Source of the DNA: Microlunatus flavus
Lineage (GTDB): Bacteria > Actinomycetota > Actinomycetes > Propionibacteriales > Propionibacteriaceae
Direction: 5' to 3'
Length of the DNA stretch: 64,000 nucleotides
Assembly (NCBI RefSeq): GCF_900110855.1
Contig: NZ_FOFA01000003.1
Location: forward strand, 496,001-560,000
Shown here: positions 4,314 through 62,487 of the stretch, in pieces
Layout of the letters: every line of letters starts with the position of its first letter
How positions within the stretch are numbered: the stretch's first letter is position 1
The notes under the pieces: generated by a model
The model's database searches: none
The model's input: the letters and a program-made list of their open reading frames with translations, nothing else
What the model was told of the DNA's origin: nothing
Position numbers and translations under genes: made by a program

Positions 4314-5645
4314 ATGCCACGACGACGTCATGTCCTGGTCGGGACCGGGCACCGGTCCCGGATGTACCTCGACGCGATGGCGGGCGCGCACCGCGACGAC
4401 GCCGAGCTGGTCGGGCTGCTCGAGCCGAACCCCGGACGGCTCGAGGTCCAGCTGGCCCGGCTGGCGGCGGGCGGCTTCGACACGTCCGCCCTCGCCACCG
4501 GCGGCCCGGACGCGCTGGAGCAGGTGCTCCAGCGCACCGGTGCGGAACGGCTGATCGTCACCTCCCCCGACCTCACGCACGCCGACCTGGTCGTGCGCGG
4601 CCTCGACGCAGGCGTCGACGTCGTGGTCGAGAAGCCCCTGACCATCGACCCGGAGAGCGTGCGGCGCATCGCCGAGGCGGTCCAGCGCTCCGGCCGCGAG
4701 GTGGTGGTCACCCACAACTACCGCTACTCCCCGCGCAACTCCGGGCTCAAGCAGCTCGTCAAGGACGGTGCCGTCGGCCGGCCCCTGTCGGTCACGTTCG
4801 AGTGGGTGCTCGACACCGCCCACGGTGCCGACTACTTCCGGCGTTGGCACCGCGACAAGCGCAACTCGGGCGGTCTGCTGATCCACAAGGCGTCGCACCA
4901 CTTCGACATCGTCAACTGGCTGCTGGCCGACGCGCCGGCCCAGGTGTACGCCCGCGGCGGCGTGCGCTTCTACGGCGCCGAGAACGCCGACGCCCGCGGA
5001 CTCGCCCCGCGTCCCGAGCGCGGCACCCACGACGGGCCGCACACGCCGTGGGAGCTCGACCTGCGCGACGACCCCGACCTGCGCGCGCTCTACCTCGACA
5101 ACGAGTCGTACGACGGCTACCACCGCGACCAGGACGTCTTCGCGCCCGGCGTGACCACCGAGGACAACCTGGCGGTGGTCGTCGACTACGAGCGCGGCGC
5201 CACCCTCAGCTACGCGCTGAACGCGCACTCGCCGTGGGAGGGCTACCGGATCGCCGTCAACGGCACCGAGGGCCGGGCGGAGCTCGACGTCGTCGAGCGG
5301 GCCGCCGTCCTGCTCGACGCCGAGGGCGCGGTCCTGGTGGACCCGAGCGCGCAGCCGGAGTCGACCACGCGACCGGGCGGGCAGCGACTGACCCTGCAGC
5401 GGCACTGGGAGGAGGCCCGCGAGGTGCCGATCACCGAGGGCGGCGGCGGCCACGGCGGCGGCGACGCGCTGATGCTGTCCGACGTGTTCCGCGGCGCCGG
5501 CGACGACCACCTCGAGCGGCCCTCGACGTGGGTCGACGGTGTCCGCTCGACCGCCGTCGGCATGGCCGGCAACGAGTCGCTCCGCACCGGGCTGCCCGTC
5601 GCCGTCCGCGACCTCGGCCTGGGGGTCGACCTCACCCGGCGCTGA
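4314..5645 (+). CDS. Gfo/Idh/MocA family oxidoreductase
   Basis: A 443-aa NAD(P)-dependent oxidoreductase. The N-terminal Rossmann start is VLVGTGHRSRMYLDAM (residues 7-22). The family EKP signature, whose lysine takes part in hydride transfer, is at 106-108. A histidine-rich active-site stretch (HKASHHFDIVNW) lies near residue 190. The C-terminal beta-sheet domain is longer than in a typical 350-aa member. The start ATG has GAGGAG upstream and sits about 90 bases after the operator. Substrate is unknown; the shared operator with uxaE suggests a sugar acid or glycoside. Its 3' end overlaps the convergent hydrolase by 14 bases. It resembles the protein at 13926 in the R-x-MYLD motif after the glycine loop. 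Confidence 0.85.
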   Translation: MPRRRHVLVGTGHRSRMYLDAMAGAHRDDAELVGLLEPNPGRLEVQLARLAAGGFDTSALATGGPDALEQVLQRTGAERLIVTSPDLTHADLVVRGLDAGVDVVVEKPLTIDPESVRRIAEAVQRSGREVVVTHNYRYSPRNSGLKQLVKDGAVGRPLSVTFEWVLDTAHGADYFRRWHRDKRNSGGLLIHKASHHFDIVNWLLADAPAQVYARGGVRFYGAENADARGLAPRPERGTHDGPHTPWELDLRDDPDLRALYLDNESYDGYHRDQDVFAPGVTTEDNLAVVVDYERGATLSYALNAHSPWEGYRIAVNGTEGRAELDVVERAAVLLDAEGAVLVDPSAQPESTTRPGGQRLTLQRHWEEAREVPITEGGGGHGGGDALMLSDVFRGAGDDHLERPSTWVDGVRSTAVGMAGNESLRTGLPVAVRDLGLGVDLTRR

Positions 5646-6804
5646 CGCCCGCGAGGGCCTCGCCGAGGAACGTCCACGCCTCGTCCTGCATCGCGGCGTC
5701 GAAGACGTGGCCGCCCGCGCCGAAGGTCCCCGCGTAGCGGTCGGACCCGGCGTGCAGGGCGAGGAGGCGCTCGTGCGCCGCCTCCATGCCCTCGAGCGGG
5801 AAGAGCTCGTCCGCGCGGCCGTACTGCACGAGGAACCGCGCTCTCCCGAGCGCCGTGAGGTCCGGCCAATCGGCGTGCGACCAGAGCCCGGGCGCGTGCA
5901 GCAGCCAGGAGTGGGTGTCGAGGTAGCCGGGCACGAGGCTGGCGAAGGTGGCCATCATGCCGACGACGACCGCCGCGCCGACGCGGTCGTCGAGCGCCGC
6001 CAGCAGCAGGCTGCGCCCTCCCCCGCCGGAGAAGCCGATCGTCGCGAGGCGGCCGGGGTCGACGCCGTCGGTGCCGGCCAGCACGTCGAGGGCCACGAGG
6101 TCGTCGCCGACCACGGCGCCGGCGAAGGTGGTCCCGAGGACCCCGCACGCCTTGGCCAGCGTCTCCTCGTGCAGTCCGGACAGGTGGTCGAACCGTTCCT
6201 CCGGGCTCGGACTGACCCCCTGCTGAGCCCACAGCGCCTCCTGCGCCCGGGCCAGGGCGGCGAGGCGTGGGGTCGGGCGGGAGAGGTCGAAGCGCCGGCT
6301 GCCCCAGGAGAAGGTGTCGTGGACCAGGACGACGTGGCCGCGGCGCGCGAGGTCGTTCGCGGGGGCGCGTCCGGCGTAGCCGGAGGCCCGCAGCGCCACG
6401 GCGCGGGCGCTCGACGCGGCGCCGAGGTCGACCAGCTGCTCGCCCCCGACGGAACGCACGCCGCCGTGGAAGTGCATCCCGAGGACCCCGGGCAACGGCT
6501 CGTCGGCCCCGGCCGGGCGCAGCCGCCAGGCCCGGGTACGGGGCCCGTGACCCACCGACCAGCGCAGCCGCTCGACGAGGACCCCCTCGTGCTCCAGGCG
6601 GTCCTCGACGACGACCTCCGGGCGGGGCGGGGGCCGGCGGACGCCGAGCACCCGGGCGAGGGCCGTGCCCGCCTCGCTCGCGGCCTCGTACGGCGCCGCG
6701 GCGCGCATCGCCGCCGGCCAGTCCTCGTAGCCGGCGAGCGGGTCGGGACGCACCTCGGCAGCCACCTCGTCAGCCAACTCGTCGGTCCCCTCGCGTCGCG
6801 TCAC
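5632..6804 (-). CDS. Alpha/beta hydrolase (Abhydrolase_7/acetyl-xylan-esterase-like)
   Basis: About 390 aa with a serine-hydrolase core. The nucleophile elbow is GFSGGGG with Ser259, preceded by RRGHVVLVHDTFSWGSRR (strand and turn typical of dienelactone hydrolase/acetyl-xylan esterase relatives). A likely catalytic histidine sits near the C-terminus (GAGGHVFD). No signal peptide is seen, so it probably acts in the cytoplasm on an imported acylated sugar. The frame is open up to 7116, but I chose GTG at 6804 because sequence upstream loses family character and runs across the divergent promoter; ATG at 6708 is an alternative. It shares the promoter region and operator with the oxidoreductase at 6869. 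Substrate not determinable. Confidence 0.75.
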   Translation of the reverse strand: MTRREGTDELADEVAAEVRPDPLAGYEDWPAAMRAAAPYEAASEAGTALARVLGVRRPPPRPEVVVEDRLEHEGVLVERLRWSVGHGPRTRAWRLRPAGADEPLPGVLGMHFHGGVRSVGGEQLVDLGAASSARAVALRASGYAGRAPANDLARRGHVVLVHDTFSWGSRRFDLSRPTPRLAALARAQEALWAQQGVSPSPEERFDHLSGLHEETLAKACGVLGTTFAGAVVGDDLVALDVLAGTDGVDPGRLATIGFSGGGGRSLLLAALDDRVGAAVVVGMMATFASLVPGYLDTHSWLLHAPGLWSHADWPDLTALGRARFLVQYGRADELFPLEGMEAAHERLLALHAGSDRYAGTFGAGGHVFDAAMQDEAWTFLGEALAGVSAG

Positions 6805-6855
6805 GGAGTCGGCGTCGGCCGCGGGGCGGACCGTGACCGCCCGCCGCGCAGGTCC

Positions 6856-54710: not shown

Positions 54711-54726
54711 GTAACCCGTCCGGAAC
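54711..54726 (+). promoter_or_regulatory. Possible GlnR-type site upstream of the nit cluster
   Basis: GTAAC-N6-GGAAC, four of five matches to the second GlnR half-site (GAAAC) and full match to the first. It lies 77 bases before the first cluster gene. A second GTTAC is at 54680. GlnR controls nitrogen starvation genes in actinobacteria. Weak evidence. Confidence 0.35.
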
Positions 54727-54802: not shown

Positions 54803-55327
54803 GTGCCGCTGTTCGACGACGAGATCCTCGCCAAGATCGAGACCTCCCGCAACGAGATCCCGCACCCCTCGCTGGAGAAGGGCAGCTCGATCTACGGCTC
54901 GACCAAGATCTTCCCCGACATCCAGGCCGAGCCCGGCCAGTCGTACCTGACGCTCGTCCACGGCATCGCCCACGAGTCCAGCGTCAGCTTCGTCGCCTGC
55001 CTGCAGGCCCTCCGCGCGCTGCGCAAGGGCTTCGACTCGGTCGTCTACTTCTACGGCCCGGGCTCGATGAACGCGATCGCCACCCGCGGCTTCCCCACCA
55101 CCGGCGACTCGGCCTTCCCCGGTGAGCAGAACATCAACAACACGCTGCAGACCTTCATGGACGAGGGCGGCACCGTCTTCGTCTGCCGCTTCGGTCTCTC
55201 GCTGCACGGCCTGCGCGAGGAGGACCTGATGCCGGGAACCATCCCCTGCCACCCGCTCGACGTGCAGGACGCCCTCATCTACTTCGCCAACAAGGGCGCG
55301 ATCATCAACTCGACCTACATGGTCTGA
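54803..55327 (+). CDS. MSMEG_0572/Sll0783 family nitrogen-starvation protein
   Basis: A 174-aa protein with clear likeness to the MSMEG_0572/Sll0783 family, which marks the start of Nit1C clusters. Conserved blocks are SSIYGSTKIFPDIQAEPGQS, SLHGLREEDLMPGTIPCHPLD and YFANKGAIINSTYMV. It has a DsrE-like alpha/beta feel, with no cofactor motif visible. AGGAG precedes the GTG. The following gene begins 13 bases after its stop. In cyanobacteria the homologue is raised by nitrogen limitation; its chemistry is unknown. Confidence 0.9.
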   Translation: MPLFDDEILAKIETSRNEIPHPSLEKGSSIYGSTKIFPDIQAEPGQSYLTLVHGIAHESSVSFVACLQALRALRKGFDSVVYFYGPGSMNAIATRGFPTTGDSAFPGEQNINNTLQTFMDEGGTVFVCRFGLSLHGLREEDLMPGTIPCHPLDVQDALIYFANKGAIINSTYMV

Positions 55328-55340
55328 GGCCGTACCGACC

Positions 55341-56396
55341 ATGAGCGTGACGACGAGGGTCGACCTCGCGATCCTGGGGATCCGCGGCGGGGCGCCGGTG
55401 AGCCGCCGCTCCGGCGCGGGACCCAGCGACGACGGGCACCTGCTGCTCGACGGCCGGGGCGTCGCCGTGCCGCTGAACGACGCCAGCCCCTACTGGCTCG
55501 ACGGCGACACGCTCCTCAAGGACGGCGTGGTCGTCGAGGACGTGGCCGTGGAGCCGGTGCGCCGGCCGCGGTTCTACGACCTCCGCACCGCGGAGGGCAC
55601 CTCGTACGAGATGCTCGCCCGCCTCCACGGGCGTGACGTCCTCGCGACCACCGTCGTCCAGACCTGCATCCGCTACGACGAGGCGGAACGGTGCCGGTTC
55701 TGCGCGATCGAGGCGTCGCTCACGGCCGGCTCCACCGTCGCGGTCAAGCGCCCGCACGAGCTGGCCGAGGTCGCCGAGGCCGCCGTCCGGCTCGACGGCG
55801 TGCGCCAGATGGTCATGACGACCGGGACGTCGGCCGGTCGCGACCGCGGCGCCACCCACCTGGCCCGCTGCGTGCGGGCGGTCAAGGCACGCGTGCCCGA
55901 CCTGCCGGTCCAGGTCCAGTGCGAGCCGCCCGGTGACCTGGGCACGATCACCGAGCTGCGCGAGGCCGGTGCGGACGCGATCGGGATCCACGTGGAGTCG
56001 CTCGACGACGCCGTGCGCCGCCGCTGGATGCCGGGCAAGTCCCGGGTGAGCCTGTCCGAGTACCGGGCCGCCTGGGCCGAGGCGGTCCGCGTCTTCGGGC
56101 GCAACCAGGTGTCGACCTACCTCCTGGTCGGCCTCGGCGAGGACCCCGACGAGCTGGTGGCCGGCGCGCGCGAGCTGATCGCCATGGGCGTCTACCCGTT
56201 CGTGGTGCCGTTCCGCCCGCTCGCCGGGACGCTCGCCCAGGCCGACGGGGCCACCGCGCCCGACCCCCTCGTGCTCGAGGACGTGACCCGCCGGGTCGCC
56301 CGGGACCTGGTCGCCGCCGGCATGACCTCCGACGGCCAGTCCGCGGGGTGCGCGGCGTGCGGCGCCTGCAGCACCCTCCAGCAGCAGGGCGCCTGA
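55341..56396 (+). CDS. MSMEG_0568 family radical SAM protein
   Basis: A 351-aa radical SAM family protein of Nit1C clusters. The cluster-binding cysteines are Cys109, Cys118 and Cys121: the spacing C-x8-C-x2-C is wider than the classic C-x3-C-x2-C. A second group, C-x2-C-x2-C (337, 340, 343), lies at the very C-terminus, and may hold an auxiliary iron-sulfur cluster. EAGADAIGIHVESLDD and TYLLVGLGEDPDEL are typical barrel strands. It overlaps the next gene as TGATG. The reaction is unknown. Confidence 0.9.
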   Translation: MSVTTRVDLAILGIRGGAPVSRRSGAGPSDDGHLLLDGRGVAVPLNDASPYWLDGDTLLKDGVVVEDVAVEPVRRPRFYDLRTAEGTSYEMLARLHGRDVLATTVVQTCIRYDEAERCRFCAIEASLTAGSTVAVKRPHELAEVAEAAVRLDGVRQMVMTTGTSAGRDRGATHLARCVRAVKARVPDLPVQVQCEPPGDLGTITELREAGADAIGIHVESLDDAVRRRWMPGKSRVSLSEYRAAWAEAVRVFGRNQVSTYLLVGLGEDPDELVAGARELIAMGVYPFVVPFRPLAGTLAQADGATAPDPLVLEDVTRRVARDLVAAGMTSDGQSAGCAACGACSTLQQQGA

Positions 56397-57805
56397 TGAG
56401 CGTCTTCGACGTGGAGCTGCTGACCCGCGACACCGTCGGTCCCCGGGACCGGACCGCGACGGTGGCCGTGGCCGAGGACGGCGCGACGCTGGCCGCGGCG
56501 CGTCGGCTCCGGCACGAGACGTTCGTGGTCGAGCAGAGCCTCTTCGGCGCCACCGACCGCGACGACGTCGACGACGACGCGCGGGCCCTCACGCTCGTGG
56601 CGCTCGACCCGACCGGTCACGTCGTCGGCACCGTCCGGCTCGCGCCAGCCACGCCGGGGCGCGACCTCGGGTGGTGGGTCGGCAGCCGGCTCGCGGTCGC
56701 CCGCCCGGCGCGCGGGCACGCCGCCGGGATCGGCCAGGCCCTCGTGCGCGCGGCCTGCGCCCACGCCGAACGGCTCGGGGCCCTGCGCTTCGACGCCCAC
56801 GTGCAGACCGCGAACGTCCCCCTCTTCCGCCGGCTCGGCTGGCGCGCGCTGGCCGACGAGGTCGCGTACGGCCGCCCGCACGTCCTCATGACCTGGGCCG
56901 TCGACCGCGTCACCCGGCTCGCCGCCCGCACCAAGGCGCCGCTGGGCCCGCTGCTGACCCCGCTCGCCGGGGGCCCGTCCGGGCTGGGCGGCGACGGGTT
57001 CCGCGGCGACGACGCGGCGCCGGTCCCCGGCTCCGACCTCGTGGCCGCGACCGACGCGATCCTGCCCTCGATGGTCGAGCGCGACCCGACCTGGGCGGGC
57101 TGGTGCGCCGTCCTGGTGAACCTCAACGACCTCGCCGCCATGGGTGCCACCCCTGTCGCCCTGCTCGACGCGCTCGGGGCCCGCGACGCGAGCTTCGCGA
57201 CCCGCGTGGTGCGGGGCGTCGCGGCGGCCGCGCAGGCGTGGGACGTGCCCGTCGTCGGGGGCCACACCCAGCTCGGGGTCCCCGGCTCCCTGTCGGTGAC
57301 CGCCCTGGGCCGGACGGCCGACCCGGTCCCGGGCGGCGGGGGCCGGCCTGGCCAGGCCGTCACCGTCACGGCCGACCTCGCCGGCGGCTGGCGCCCCGGC
57401 TACCGCGGCGCCCAGTGGGACTCCACCAGCGCACGGTCGACCGAGGACCTGCGGGCGATGGGCTCCCTCGTCGCCCGGACCCGACCGGCCGCCGCGAAGG
57501 ACGTGAGCATGGCCGGACTGGTCGGCACCCTCGGGATGCTGGCCGAGGCCAGCGGCTGCGGCGCCGTGCTCGACGTCGCCGACGTCCCGACCCCGGCCGG
57601 GGCGACGACCGGCGACTGGCTCACCTGCTTCCCCGGCTTCGCCATGGTCACCGCCGACGAGCCCGGCCGCGCGCCCGCTCCCGCCGGTCCGGCCACCACT
57701 GCGGCCTGCGGCGCGCTCACCCCCGGCGACGGCGTCGGGCTGCGCTGGCCCGACGGCCGTACGACCCCCGCCCTCACCACCGTCACCGGACTAGGACCCG
57801 CATGA
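56396..57805 (+). CDS. MSMEG_0567/Sll0787 family fusion: GNAT plus AIR-synthase-like domains
   Basis: A 469-aa fusion. Residues 1-175 form a GNAT acyltransferase (LAAARRLRHETFVVEQSLFG, GHAAGIGQALVRAAC). Residues about 195-469 resemble AIR synthase/PurM or selenophosphate-synthetase-like ATPases (GDDAAPVPG, NLNDLAAMGATPVALLDALG and VPVVGGHTQLG). In some cyanobacteria these are separate or differently arranged. It is coupled on both sides, by TGATG upstream and ATGA with nit1 downstream. It probably activates an intermediate for the cluster; substrate unknown. Confidence 0.88.
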   Translation: MSVFDVELLTRDTVGPRDRTATVAVAEDGATLAAARRLRHETFVVEQSLFGATDRDDVDDDARALTLVALDPTGHVVGTVRLAPATPGRDLGWWVGSRLAVARPARGHAAGIGQALVRAACAHAERLGALRFDAHVQTANVPLFRRLGWRALADEVAYGRPHVLMTWAVDRVTRLAARTKAPLGPLLTPLAGGPSGLGGDGFRGDDAAPVPGSDLVAATDAILPSMVERDPTWAGWCAVLVNLNDLAAMGATPVALLDALGARDASFATRVVRGVAAAAQAWDVPVVGGHTQLGVPGSLSVTALGRTADPVPGGGGRPGQAVTVTADLAGGWRPGYRGAQWDSTSARSTEDLRAMGSLVARTRPAAAKDVSMAGLVGTLGMLAEASGCGAVLDVADVPTPAGATTGDWLTCFPGFAMVTADEPGRAPAPAGPATTAACGALTPGDGVGLRWPDGRTTPALTTVTGLGPA

Positions 57806-58740
57806 CCGCCTCCCCCACGCGCTCCCACGAGACCACGATCACCGTCGTCGCCGACGCCTTCGGCCGCGACCTTAAGGCCGCGTACGCGACCATCGCCCGC
57901 ATCGTCGCCGAGGCCAGAGCCCGCGGCACCGACCTGCTCGTGCTGCCCGAGGCCTGCCTCGGCGGCTACCTGCCGAGCCTCGGCAGCGTGCACGATGACG
58001 AGGAGACGCTCGCCCGCCGCCGCCGGAACCTGCCCCCCGCCTTCGCGCTGGACGGGCCCGAGATCGCGCGGGTCGCCGCCCTCGCCGGGGGCATGACCGT
58101 GCTGCTCGGCCTGTGCGAGGCCACGCAGGAGGCCGGTGCGGAGGTCCGCTACAACACCGCGGTCGCGCTCACCGGCGACGGCGTGCTCGCCGCGCACCGC
58201 AAGGTCCACCAGCCGCTCGGGGAGAACCTCAGCTACGCCGCGGCGTCGGCCTTCGAGGCGTTCGACTCGCCCGTGGGGCGGATCGGGATGCTCATCTGCT
58301 ACGACAAGGCCTTCCCCGAGGCGTCGCGCACGCTCGCCCTCGACGGGGCGGAGATCATCGCGGCGCTCTCGGCCTGGCCGACCGCGCGGACGGCGGCGGC
58401 CGACCGCATCGAGGACGACCGCTGGAAGAAGCGCTTCGACCTCTACGACGCCGCCCGCGCGCTCGACAACCAGGTCGTGTGGGCCGCGTCCAACCAGACC
58501 GGGACGTTCGGCTCGCTGCGCTTCGTCGGCAACGCCAAGATCGTCGGCCCCGGTGGCGACGTGCGCGCCGAGACCGGCGTCGCCGGCGGCCTGGCCACCG
58601 TGACCCTCGACGTCCACGCCGAGCTCGCCGCGGTCCGTCAGGGCATGTACGCGCTGCGCGACCGCCGCCCGGAGGCGTACCGCCTCGACGCCGTCCTGCC
58701 CGACTACCCCGCCGAGCGTCCGGAGCCCGCGTATGCCTGA
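57802..58740 (+). CDS. nit1: Nit1-type nitrilase
   Basis: A 312-aa nitrilase-superfamily enzyme with the full catalytic triad: Glu50 (LLVLPEACLGGY), Lys134 (AHRKVHQPLGE) and Cys166 (GMLICYDKAFPE). It hydrolyses a nitrile to acid and ammonia; the natural substrate of Nit1C is not established to my knowledge, though such clusters have been linked to cyanide assimilation. ATG overlaps the previous stop (ATGA). Its paralogue at 60341 has lost two of the three catalytic residues. Confidence 0.93.
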   Translation: MTASPTRSHETTITVVADAFGRDLKAAYATIARIVAEARARGTDLLVLPEACLGGYLPSLGSVHDDEETLARRRRNLPPAFALDGPEIARVAALAGGMTVLLGLCEATQEAGAEVRYNTAVALTGDGVLAAHRKVHQPLGENLSYAAASAFEAFDSPVGRIGMLICYDKAFPEASRTLALDGAEIIAALSAWPTARTAAADRIEDDRWKKRFDLYDAARALDNQVVWAASNQTGTFGSLRFVGNAKIVGPGGDVRAETGVAGGLATVTLDVHAELAAVRQGMYALRDRRPEAYRLDAVLPDYPAERPEPAYA

Positions 58741-59026
58741 GCTGAGGTTCACCACCCGCTGGCCCGACGGCCACACCCTCGAGACCTACTCGCCCTCGCT
58801 CGTGGTCCACGACCACCTCGAGGTCGGCCGCTCGTACGCGGTCGCCGAGTTCGTCGAGCGGGCCGAGGCGGCGCTCACCGAGGCCAGCGAACGGGTCCGC
58901 GCCCGCTGGGGCCGCCCCTGCACCGCCGCCCGTGCGTCGCTGGAGACCATTCACCTCGTCGCCGAGCAGCAGCGCGAGGGCCTCGTCGTCGTCGAGTCGA
59001 TGGACCCGCCGGCGGTGGAGTCATGA
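58733..59026 (+). CDS. MSMEG_0570 family nitrogen-starvation protein
   Basis: A 97-aa protein matching the small MSMEG_0570 family of Nit1C clusters: RFTTRWPDGHTLETYSPS, HDHLEVGRSYAVAEFVERAE and a final block EQQREGLVVVESMDPPAVE. It is coupled on both sides, overlapping nit1 by eight bases and the flavoprotein by four. No catalytic motif; perhaps an accessory or binding protein. Confidence 0.88.
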   Translation: MPELRFTTRWPDGHTLETYSPSLVVHDHLEVGRSYAVAEFVERAEAALTEASERVRARWGRPCTAARASLETIHLVAEQQREGLVVVESMDPPAVES

Positions 59027-60315
59027 CCCCTCCGACAGGCTCAGGGAACGTGGGGCAGGTGCCCGTCGCGGTCGTCGGCGGCGGGCAGGCGGGGCTGAGC
59101 GCGAGCTGGTTCCTCGCGCGGGCCGGCGTGGAGCACGTCGTGCTGGAACGCGACACCGCAGGCCACGACTGGCGGGACCGGCGCTGGGAGTCCTTCACCC
59201 TGGTCACCCCCAACGTGCAGTGCCGCCTGCCCGGCTTCGCCTACCCGGGCGACGACCCGTACGGCTTCATGACGCGGGCGCAGACCGTCGCCTACCTCGC
59301 CGAGTACGTCCGGCGCACCGCCCCGCCGCTGCGCGAGCGGACAGCCGTTCGCGAGCTGCGCCAGGACGCCGGGGGCGGGTTCGTCCTCGACCTGGACACG
59401 GCCGACGGACCGGAGGTGCTGCGCGCCGAGCAGGTCGTCGTCGCCACCGGCGGCTACCACGTCCCCCGCGTCCCGCGCCTGGCCGAACGGCTGCCGGCTG
59501 ACGTCGTGCAGGTGCACTCGGCGGCGTACCAGAGCCCGCACGCGCTGCCGGAGGGCGCCGTCCTCGTCGTCGGCACCGGCCAGTCGGGTGCGCAGATCGC
59601 CGAGGACCTCCACCTGGCCGGGCGTCAGGTCCACCTCGTCGTCGGGTCGGCACCCCGCTGCGCCCGGCGCTACCGCGGTCGCGACTGCATCGACTGGCTG
59701 GAGGAGATGGGGCTCTACGACGTCCCCGTCGAGGACACGCCCGGCGGCCTGCGCGAGCGGGAGAAGACGAACCACTACATGACCGGCCGCGACGGCGGCC
59801 ACGACATCGACCTGCGCCGCTTCGCGCTCGAGGGGATGGCTCTGTACGGCCGGCTCGTCGAGGTCGACGGGGCGCGGCTCGCCTTCGCCCCCACCCTCGA
59901 GGCGTCGCTGGACCGGGCGGACCGGGTCGCGGAGGACATCAAGGACGCGATCGACCGGCACGTCGCGGCCACGGGCGTCGCGGCACCGACCGAGGCGCGC
60001 TACGTGCCCGTGTGGCGACCCGAGGTGGAGCCGACGGAGCTCGACCTGGAGGCGGCGGGCATCAGCGCGGTCGTCTGGGCCACGGGCTTCTCCAGCGACT
60101 TCCGCTGGGTCCGGGTGCCGGTCTTCGACGGCCGCGGCGCGGTCGGTCACCACCGCGGCGTCACCGCGGTCGAGGGGCTGCACTTCCTCGGGCTGCCGTG
60201 GCTGCACACCTGGGGCTCCGGCCGGTTCGCCGGGCTCACCCGCGACGCCGAGCACGTCGTCGACCACGTCGTGGCGGGGCTGCGGCCCCAGCGCCACCTG
60301 CGGCTGACCTCGTGA
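59023..60315 (+). CDS. MSMEG_0569 family flavin-dependent oxidoreductase
   Basis: A 430-aa FAD/NAD(P)-binding protein. GGGQAGLSASWFLARAGVEH near residue 19 is the FAD loop, and VVGTGQSGAQIAEDLHLAGR near 185 the NADPH loop, as in flavin monooxygenases. GLPWLHTWGSGRF near the end is a family mark. ATG at 59023 overlaps the previous stop. The first ten codons are made from a copy of the TCCGACAGGCTCAGGGA repeat, so the true functional start may be GTG 59050. It probably oxidises a nitrogen compound for the cluster. Confidence 0.88.
   Translation: MTPPTGSGNVGQVPVAVVGGGQAGLSASWFLARAGVEHVVLERDTAGHDWRDRRWESFTLVTPNVQCRLPGFAYPGDDPYGFMTRAQTVAYLAEYVRRTAPPLRERTAVRELRQDAGGGFVLDLDTADGPEVLRAEQVVVATGGYHVPRVPRLAERLPADVVQVHSAAYQSPHALPEGAVLVVGTGQSGAQIAEDLHLAGRQVHLVVGSAPRCARRYRGRDCIDWLEEMGLYDVPVEDTPGGLREREKTNHYMTGRDGGHDIDLRRFALEGMALYGRLVEVDGARLAFAPTLEASLDRADRVAEDIKDAIDRHVAATGVAAPTEARYVPVWRPEVEPTELDLEAAGISAVVWATGFSSDFRWVRVPVFDGRGAVGHHRGVTAVEGLHFLGLPWLHTWGSGRFAGLTRDAEHVVDHVVAGLRPQRHLRLTS
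59028..59047. repeat. Third copy of the CTCCGACAGGCTCAGGG repeat, inside a gene start
   Basis: CCCTCCGACAGGCTCAGGGA matches the core of the tandem units at 54568-54627. It spans the first codons of the flavoprotein gene. Confidence 0.75.
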
Positions 60316-60340: not shown

Positions 60341-61291
60341 GTGACCCCCGTCCGCATCGGGGCGGTCGCGGCGCACTTCGGGCGCGACGTGGGCCGCACG
60401 TTGGCCAAGCTGGAGGCGATGCTCGCGGGGGCGCGACGCGACGGGACCGACCTGCTCGTCCTGCCGGGCGCGACGATCGGCGGCTACGTCCCCGACCTCC
60501 AGCACCCCTGGGCGGCCGGCCACTCGCGCACCCCGGGCGCGCAGGACCTGCCGCCGGCGTTCGCCCTGGACGACGCGATCGTCGACCAGGTCCGCCGCCT
60601 GGCGGGGCCGATGGTCATCTGCTTCGGCTTCTGCGAGCTCGAGGACGGCCTGCGCTACAACACCGCGCTCGCCGTCAGCGGCGACGGGGTCCTGGGCCGG
60701 CACCGCAAGGTGCACCAGCCGCTCGGCGAGGTCGCGGCGTACGCGGCGGGTGACCGGTTCGCCGCCTTCGACACCCCGGTCGGGCGGATGGGCATGCTCA
60801 TCGACTACGACAAGACGTTCCCCGAGTCGGCCCGCTCGCTCGCCCTGGACGGCGCCCAGGTCGTCGCCGCCCTCTCGGCCTGGCCGGCCAGCGTGACCAA
60901 CCGGGCCGAGCGCCTCGGCGACGACCGGCAGGCCCGGCTCTTCGACCTCTACGACGCCGCCCGCGCGGCGGAGAACCAGGTCGTCTGGGTCTCCTCGAAC
61001 CAGACCGGCGTGTTCGGCGACCTGCGGTTCCTCGGCCAGGCCAAGGTCGTCGACCCGGCCGGACGGGCGCTGGCCCGCACCGGCACCAAGGGCGGCCTCG
61101 CCGCGGTCGAGCTCGACGTGGCCGCCGAGGTCGCGCGGGCCCGCCGCCTGCTGCACCACCTCGTCGAGCGCCGACCCGCCGCGTACGGCCCCGTCACCGA
61201 CGCCGACCGTGCTGACGCCGACCGTGCCGAGGCCGACCGTGCCGAGGCCGCCCGTGCTGGGGCCGACCGGGTGGACGGGGCCCGGCGGTGA
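60341..61291 (+). CDS. Nitrilase paralogue without catalytic Glu and Cys (pseudo-enzyme)
   Basis: A 316-aa protein, clearly a duplicate of the Nit1 gene product: HRKVHQPLGE, FDLYDAARA-x-x-NQVVW and SNQTG-x-FG-x-LRF are shared. But the catalytic Glu is Gly43 (LLVLPGATIGGY) and the catalytic Cys is Asp155 (GMLIDYDKTFPE); only Lys123 remains. Normal nitrilase or amidase chemistry is therefore impossible. It is intact, full-length and in the middle of the cluster, which suggests a kept function such as a subunit or regulator of Nit1. The C-terminus has five copies of a 15-base, five-residue repeat (ADRAE type). It overlaps the glycosyltransferase start by four bases. Confidence 0.9.
   Translation: MTPVRIGAVAAHFGRDVGRTLAKLEAMLAGARRDGTDLLVLPGATIGGYVPDLQHPWAAGHSRTPGAQDLPPAFALDDAIVDQVRRLAGPMVICFGFCELEDGLRYNTALAVSGDGVLGRHRKVHQPLGEVAAYAAGDRFAAFDTPVGRMGMLIDYDKTFPESARSLALDGAQVVAALSAWPASVTNRAERLGDDRQARLFDLYDAARAAENQVVWVSSNQTGVFGDLRFLGQAKVVDPAGRALARTGTKGGLAAVELDVAAEVARARRLLHHLVERRPAAYGPVTDADRADADRAEADRAEAARAGADRVDGARR
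61202..61276 (+). repeat. 15-bp coding tandem repeat, five units
   Basis: Five units of the type GCCGACCGTGCCGAG encode an Ala-Asp-Arg-Ala-Glu-like tail of the pseudo-nitrilase; the last two are diverged. An in-frame minisatellite that may vary in length between strains. Confidence 0.8.
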
Positions 61292-62487
61292 GGGTCGCGC
61301 TCCTCACCTACTCGACCAAGCCCCGGGGCGGGGTGGTCCACACGCTCGCCCTGGCGGAGGCTCTGGCCCGCCTCGGCGCCGACGTCACCGTCTGGACCGT
61401 GGGGCGGGGCGGGGACGACGGGTTCTTCCGGCCGGTGGACCCTCAGGTGGAGGTCGAGGTCGCCCCTCTGCCTCACCTCGAGGGTGAGACCGTCGGCGCG
61501 CGCATCCAGCGCTCCATCCGGGTCCTCGGGACCGCCTTCGCCGACCGGACCGCGGCGGGGGTCGCGTACGACGTCGTCCACGCGCAGGACTGCATCAGCG
61601 CCAACGCCGTGCCGCGCTGCGTCCGGACGGTCCACCACCTCGACCAGTTCACGACGCCCGAGCTGGTCGCCTGCCACGAGCGGGCGATCGTCCGGCCGTA
61701 CGCCCACGTCTGCGTCTCCGCCGCCGTCGCGGTCGAGGTGGAGGCCGGCTGGGGCCTGCGGCCGACGGTGATCCCGAACGGGGTCGAGGCGCAGCGGTTC
61801 GTCGAGGCGGCGGCCGACCCGGGCGCCTCGGAGCCCTGGCGTCGGCGCTTCGGTCGCTACGTCCTGGCCGTCGGCGGCATCGAGCCGCGCAAGGGCACGC
61901 TCGACCTGCTCGAGGCCTTCGCCCTGGCCCGGCGCACCCGTCCCGAGCTGGAGCTGGTCCTCGCCGGCGGTGAGACGCTGTTCGACTACCGCGGCTACCG
62001 GGAGGCCTTCGACGCCCGGGCCGTCGAGCTCGGTGTCGTGCCCCACGTGCTGGGGCCGGTCGACCACGCCGCGCTGCCCGGCCTCGTGGCCGGCTGCGCC
62101 GCATTCGGCTTCGTGTCGACGAAGGAGGGCTTCGGGCTCGCGGCGATGGAGGCCCTGGCGGCGGGCGTGCCGGTGCTCGCGCGGCCGCTACCGGTGCTGC
62201 GCGAGGTCTTCGGCGACCACGTGCGCTACGCCGACGAAAAGCGGTCGATGGCGGCGGCGCTCCTTGAGTGCGTCGAGCGCGGACCCCTGCCGGGCGGGGC
62301 CGGGCTGGCCCTGCACCACACCTGGGAACGTGCGGCGCGGAGCCACCTCGACCTCTACGCGAGCCTCAGCGCCCGCCCGGGGGCTGCGGCCCGCCGCCGG
62401 GACCGAAGCGGTCCGGACCGCCCTGCTGCGGCCCGCGGACCAGGTCGGCCGGCGGGGACGGGAACGACTCGGCCGGCTTGCCCTTGA
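61288..62487 (+). CDS. MSMEG_0565 family glycosyltransferase
   Basis: A 399-aa GT4-type glycosyltransferase, the usual last gene of Nit1C clusters. It begins RVALLTYSTKPRGGVVHTLA and has VIPNGVEAQRF, LAVGGIEPRKGTLDLLEAFA and FVSTKEGFGLAAMEALAAG (sugar-nucleotide binding E-x7-E). GTG overlaps the previous stop. The last 40 or so residues are low-complexity (Arg/Pro/Gly-rich) and antisense to the end of the penicillin-binding gene, so the frame runs on into its neighbour. Its product may be a glycosylated metabolite of the cluster. Confidence 0.88.
   Translation: MRVALLTYSTKPRGGVVHTLALAEALARLGADVTVWTVGRGGDDGFFRPVDPQVEVEVAPLPHLEGETVGARIQRSIRVLGTAFADRTAAGVAYDVVHAQDCISANAVPRCVRTVHHLDQFTTPELVACHERAIVRPYAHVCVSAAVAVEVEAGWGLRPTVIPNGVEAQRFVEAAADPGASEPWRRRFGRYVLAVGGIEPRKGTLDLLEAFALARRTRPELELVLAGGETLFDYRGYREAFDARAVELGVVPHVLGPVDHAALPGLVAGCAAFGFVSTKEGFGLAAMEALAAGVPVLARPLPVLREVFGDHVRYADEKRSMAAALLECVERGPLPGGAGLALHHTWERAARSHLDLYASLSARPGAAARRRDRSGPDRPAAARGPGRPAGTGTTRPACP

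Follow-up and report, generated by a model that had tools for sequence, protein, structure and literature searches.

A nitrilase-fold paralogue with aspartate at the catalytic cysteine position in a gpr-type gene cluster of Microlunatus flavus

The gene at 60341..61291 (+ strand) of the 64,000-nucleotide stretch of Microlunatus flavus DNA analysed here (the window) encodes a nitrilase-fold protein, Nit_Asp, in which Gly43 and Asp155 occupy the positions of the catalytic Glu and Cys, and raises the question of what such a protein does beside its paralogue Nit_Cys (57802..58740, +). An initial annotation had described it as an intact gene whose product aligns along its length with the 57802 protein, has lost two residues of the catalytic triad and keeps the Lys, all of which is borne out. 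The open reading frame has a GTG start and 316 codons without internal stops, and residues 6-282 align with Nit_Cys at 56% identity (BLASTP). Gly43 (codon GGC, 60467..60469, +), in the context VLPGAT, is at the position of the general-base Glu and corresponds to Glu50 in VLPEAC of Nit_Cys; similarly, Asp155 in MLIDYD (GAC, 60803..60805, +) corresponds to Cys166 in MLICYD. The catalytic Lys123 in HRKVHQP (AAG, 60707..60709, +) and the second active-site Glu130 in PLGE (GAG, 60728..60730, +) are retained. Thus, at the positions of the Glu-Lys-Cys triad that characterises the nitrilase superfamily, Nit_Asp has Gly43, Lys123 and Asp155.

Membership of the superfamily is nevertheless clear at the level of the domain and the fold. 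Nit_Asp scores 109 bits against Pfam CN_hydrolase (cut-off 23.2), a family to which Nit_Cys belongs as well, and the AlphaFold models of both paralogues have the nitrilase fold (mean pLDDT 84.4 for Nit_Asp and 89.3 for Nit_Cys). The Nit_Asp model matches nitrilase-fold structures with TM-scores of 0.65-0.80, and that of Nit_Cys also matches amidase structures. In fold and overall alignment Nit_Asp resembles Pyrococcus PH0642 (1j31, 6ypa) and N-carbamoylputrescine amidohydrolase (5h8i-l), but these possess the Glu-Lys-Cys triad, whereas Nit_Asp lacks its Glu and Cys; Asp155 aligns with Cys146 of PH0642, the Cys mutated to Ala in 6ypa. The C-terminal tail (61193..61288, +) is lineage-specific and missing in most homologues. 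It is largely made up of a 15-bp tandem repeat (4.9 copies, 61197-61269) encoding a charged, Ala-Asp-Arg-rich sequence that AlphaFold models as a helix.

The window contains, on one strand, all eight genes of the MSMEG_0565-0572 (gpr) set, including two carbon-nitrogen hydrolases and the TIGR04047 glycosyltransferase. They encode the MSMEG_0572/Sll0783 family protein, first in the cluster (54803..55327, +; TIGR04044, 238.9 bits), the MSMEG_0568 family radical SAM protein (55341..56396, +; TIGR04043, 514 bits), a GNAT-AIR synthase-like fusion of the MSMEG_0567 family (56396..57805, +; TIGR04045 and TIGR04050), Nit_Cys, which has the full Glu-Lys-Glu-Cys set and is an amidase-like CN hydrolase outside the Nit6803 family, the MSMEG_0570 family protein (58733..59026, +; TIGR04042, 106 bits), the MSMEG_0569 family flavin-dependent oxidoreductase (59023..60315, +; TIGR04046, 627 bits), Nit_Asp itself, and the MSMEG_0565 family glycosyltransferase (61288..62487, +; TIGR04047, 435 bits). 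Nit_Asp had been regarded as coupled to its neighbours by overlap. This holds downstream, where the glycosyltransferase GTG (61288) and the Nit_Asp stop (61291) overlap by 4 bp, but not upstream, where 25 bp separate it from the flavoprotein stop (60315). A possible GlnR box, GTAACCCGTCCGGAAC, precedes the first gene, within the intergenic stretch (54711..54726, +); it is the sole match with one mismatch to the GlnR-like pattern in the window, although the count over the whole window is not above chance.

The six non-nitrilase genes of the Nit1C cluster are all represented (TIGR04044, TIGR04043, TIGR04045, TIGR04050, TIGR04042 and TIGR04046, each above its cut-off), so that the window and Nit1C (Podar et al. 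2005, PMC1199592) share the MSMEG_0572/Sll0783-type, radical SAM, GNAT, AIR synthase-like, ~100-aa and flavoprotein components; some betaproteobacterial Nit1C versions have a glycosyltransferase as well. However, Nit1C has one subfamily-1 nitrilase, whereas the window has two paralogous amidase-like proteins, one of them with Asp for Cys. Against TIGR04048 (Nit6803/subfamily-1 nitrilase; cut-off 502.6 bits) Nit_Asp and Nit_Cys score 28.3 and 37 bits, respectively, and no protein in the whole genome exceeds the cut-off. Since both hydrolases fall so far below this value and none passes it genome-wide, the locus is, judged by its profile matches, related to Nit1C but of the gpr type, with two amidase-like paralogues where Nit1C has its single subfamily-1 nitrilase. 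The initial annotation, which had taken the 57802 protein for Nit1 and the locus for a plain Nit1C cluster, has to be corrected on both points.

The gpr cluster of M. smegmatis, MSMEG_0565-0572, comprises the same families with two carbon-nitrogen hydrolases, MSMEG_0571 and MSMEG_0566 (PMC6039565). Mycobacterium sp. AT1 (L100) has the gene order expected of this locus, with the Asp form where MSMEG_0566 would stand, and by this synteny MSMEG_0566 is taken here as a putative Nit_Asp. The published work presents MSMEG_0566 as a putative aliphatic amidase with a possible direct role in nitrogen assimilation, and the passages covered here make no mention of the missing Cys and Glu (PMC6039565). 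The cluster confers peroxide resistance and a raised NADPH/NADP ratio, and its deletion is not complemented by single genes (PMC6039565). Its induction by GlnR under nitrogen starvation has been demonstrated for M. smegmatis only (PMC3662644, PMC4222082). Current database names for Nit_Asp-type proteins are carbon-nitrogen hydrolase or aliphatic amidase; from its residues, Nit_Asp is probably not the "amidase" of its annotation.

Several features of the clusters deserve separate mention. The Nit_Cys stop and the MSMEG_0570 start overlap (58733-58741). It has been proposed that the MSMEG_0571 stop is read as selenocysteine to give one long fusion (PMC6039565); the separate, conserved proteins downstream speak against such a readthrough product. 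In two loci (L152, 8018-9616; L177, ~5480-6850) the MSMEG_0569 flavoprotein is missing and a different FAD-binding protein of ~530 aa is in its place, an apparent non-orthologous replacement in some clusters. On the mobilizable megaplasmid pLP1 of Rhodococcus qingshengii (L181) the full eight-gene cluster has an IS3 transposase gene on each side, and may therefore be movable as a unit.

To follow the fate of the active-site residues, 118 non-identical Nit_Asp and 122 Nit_Cys sequences were aligned. The Lys, the second Glu and the Asp at the Cys position are invariant in 118/118 Nit_Asp proteins, and all 122 Nit_Cys proteins have Glu-Lys-Glu-Cys. One additional Nit_Asp copy from another class has Asp at the Cys position as well, so that the replacement goes far beyond chance. 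The former Glu site is variable (Asp in 104 of the 118, Gly in 11, and Asn, Tyr and Gln in one each), with at least five independent changes on the tree; Gly is limited to the genus of the window and one other lineage, and Asp is the usual residue. One of the two patterns used in the genome contig scan, DYDKTFPE, is biased to Asp, and Asp was therefore counted separately in genomes obtained by motif-independent, whole-protein searches. It was present in all 46 Nit_Asp genomes found in this way, and a sampling artefact was rejected as the source of its invariance.

Nit_Asp proteins are monophyletic with support of 100/100 (99/95 once a third clade and a rooting outgroup are added), and by this tree they form an ancient separate clade of single origin across Actinomycetes. 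The earlier expectation of a clade of Gly/Asp forms with constrained sites is thus confirmed as regards the clade, but Asp is its only shared replacement, Gly43 being confined to particular lineages. The third clade (L196, L197, L200, L201) comprises the closest relatives besides Nit_Cys. Two of its members (L197 and L201) share a DRQ motif with Nit_Asp; the motifs read in the clade retain Glu and Cys, and its genes are outside the cluster and in other classes. L197 and L201 are located directly before a gene for an asparagine-synthase-like amidotransferase.

In 84% of 3,828 pairs of matched genomes Nit_Asp shows the higher conservation of the two paralogues, and its dN/dS is ~0.01-0.2 for close pairs (dS < 0.3), so by these measures it is under strong purifying selection and evolves more slowly than its paralogue. 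The two proteins have 58 sites that are conserved and identical in both, 19 sites are constrained in Nit_Asp only and eight in Nit_Cys only. Five more are conserved but differ (Asp155/Cys166, Gln197/Trp208, Leu200/Arg211, Leu271/Met282 and Glu276/Asp287 for Nit_Asp/Nit_Cys, respectively). This distribution of sites is one of remodelling rather than relaxation.

The following scenario is consistent with these data. As the alignment and the tree show, an amidase-like gpr gene was duplicated in early Actinomycetes, and one copy took on Asp in place of the nucleophilic Cys and dropped the Glu base; the constraint on Asp155, Lys123, Glu130 and much of the protein core has since been stronger than in Nit_Cys. 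With both Cys and Glu lost, Nit_Asp would be unable to hydrolyse substrates through a covalent thioester as nitrilases and amidases do, given the established mechanism of the superfamily. The Asp155-Lys123-Glu130 pocket could instead bind, and perhaps transform without a thioester, an intermediate supplied by the radical SAM and GNAT-AIR proteins and handed on to the MSMEG_0565-type glycosyltransferase. Nit_Asp would then be a neofunctionalised protein whose remodelled pocket has its own step in the pathway; we prefer this reading to that of a dead subunit of Nit_Cys, and consider its chances about even.

The genomic distribution bears directly on this choice. Of 148 genomes sampled at the order level, 20 gave matches, two apiece. 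The class sample of 395 genomes, where types were assigned by reading the loci fetched, included 33 genomes with two matches, 16 with Nit_Cys only and one with Nit_Asp only. Actinobacteria with the cluster thus carry Nit_Asp in addition to Nit_Cys very often, and clusters that have Nit_Cys and lack Nit_Asp are common too. The scan, with one genome per species, gave 494 Nit_Asp-encoding stretches, the best 80 of which belong to Actinomycetota by their titles. In the phylum outside this class, both Nit_Asp and Nit_Cys occur in one genome, and in another family the clusters have Nit_Cys without Nit_Asp and without the glycosyltransferase in the stretch read. A plasmid search detected four Rhodococcus records with a Nit_Asp-type gene, which is called carbon-nitrogen hydrolase in the annotated ones.

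Could Nit_Asp have lost catalysis and serve Nit_Cys as a structural or regulatory subunit, in a heterodimer or mixed oligomer? The 33 Nit_Cys-bearing genomes among the 34 with Nit_Asp in the class sample are what such a partnership predicts, and this co-occurrence counts against our preference for a separate function. The two genes are adjacent in 38 of 124 scored loci, and the residues after the nucleophile and the following helix, which generally form the main dimer face in the nitrilase superfamily, are conserved in both paralogues. The gpr cluster of M. smegmatis, moreover, was functional only as a whole (PMC6039565). On the other hand, the 16 class-sample genomes with Nit_Cys only have cluster genes as well, and the genome with Nit_Asp only (G174) lacks both Nit_Cys and the radical SAM gene of the cluster; its orphan gene (L149/L182) is intact and lies between unrelated genes.

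Gene order likewise points away from Nit_Cys. The glycosyltransferase gene is directly downstream of Nit_Asp in 118 of the 124 scored loci, of which about 120 are usable; the six exceptions are a contig end, a rearranged cluster (L176), and the G174 orphan and a Cys protein of the third clade, each counted twice. The upstream neighbour varies, being the flavoprotein (60 loci), Nit_Cys (38), the GNAT-AIR protein (9) or the MSMEG_0570 protein (8). In two genomes Nit_Cys and a flavoprotein are away from the remaining cluster and Nit_Asp is still with the glycosyltransferase. With the other cluster proteins taken into account, Nit_Asp distances over 79 loci follow those of GNAT-AIR and radical SAM (partial correlation 0.38 each) more than those of the glycosyltransferase (0.17), and hardly at all those of Nit_Cys (0.08), although this mirror-tree (distance-matrix) comparison is weak and is affected by the replacement of Nit_Cys in some lineages. 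In these lineages a divergent type of Nit_Cys (PEAAIGGY) is present instead of the usual one or in addition to it, and Nit_Asp is kept, contrary to what a dedicated partner would suggest; in several such loci (among L138, L139, L141, L100 and L170-L173) the divergent type is beside a divergent flavoprotein. Only three Nit_Cys sites (181, 218 and 251) change when Nit_Asp is absent, and they are confounded by phylogeny; the ten Nit_Asp positions that track the swap of Nit_Cys type are mostly common to one lineage and carry no interpretable signal. No natural fusion of the two proteins was seen among the loci read.

A pure scaffold, in addition, leaves the invariant Asp155 unexplained. Pairing with Nit_Cys, close to the regulatory or structural partnership with Nit1 that the initial annotation had suggested, thus finds no specific support here and appears to us rather unlikely. 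The near-constant glycosyltransferase neighbour, the weak co-variation with Nit_Cys, the clusters with Nit_Cys only and the one genome with Nit_Asp only together favour an independent role of the pocket. Even so, adjacency to the glycosyltransferase may be inherited operon order, and the glycosyltransferase and the entire cluster also occur without Nit_Asp.

A more specific proposal, whose general form (a new chemistry using Asp) the initial annotation had raised, makes Asp155 a nucleophile or general base and Lys123 an oxyanion stabiliser in a reaction on a gpr-pathway intermediate. It is the strong form of the separate-function reading, so that its probability overlaps with that reading's own, and we consider it rather unlikely, to about the same degree as pairing with Nit_Cys. 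It is strengthened by the strict invariance of Asp155, Lys123 and Glu130; the conserved residues specific to Nit_Asp (Gln197, Leu200, Gln233, Thr222 and Ser218) and a constraint stronger than that on the Cys enzyme also speak for it. However, the former Glu position, helpful to any hydrolysis, is unconserved, and a shape-keeping salt bridge between Asp155 and Lys123 would yield equal conservation. We know of no case of Asp-based catalysis on the nitrilase fold, and the literature searched, in which most subscription journals lay outside coverage, contained nothing relevant on nitrilase pseudoenzymes or Cys-to-Asp changes and hence no precedent. Catalysis by Asp155 and a role in binding only would fit the sequence data equally well.

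Finally, a functionless, decaying duplicate, which the loss of two catalytic residues might suggest and which random substitutions or stop codons in homologues would have betrayed, is ruled out for practical purposes by the ancient clade, the invariant Asp, Lys and Glu, a dN/dS far below 1 and open frames in the genomes examined.

A whole conserved branch of the well-studied nitrilase superfamily thus seems to carry the wrong name in databases, be it carbon-nitrogen hydrolase or aliphatic amidase. For the gpr cluster of M. smegmatis, which confers peroxide resistance and supports biofilms under nitrogen starvation, this means that one of two supposed nitrogen-releasing hydrolases is very probably none. 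The natural change of Cys to Asp with Lys and Glu kept offers a clear test of a thiol-free nitrilase fold. An Asp-based reaction on this fold, if true, would be a chemistry new to the superfamily, present in hundreds of actinobacteria.
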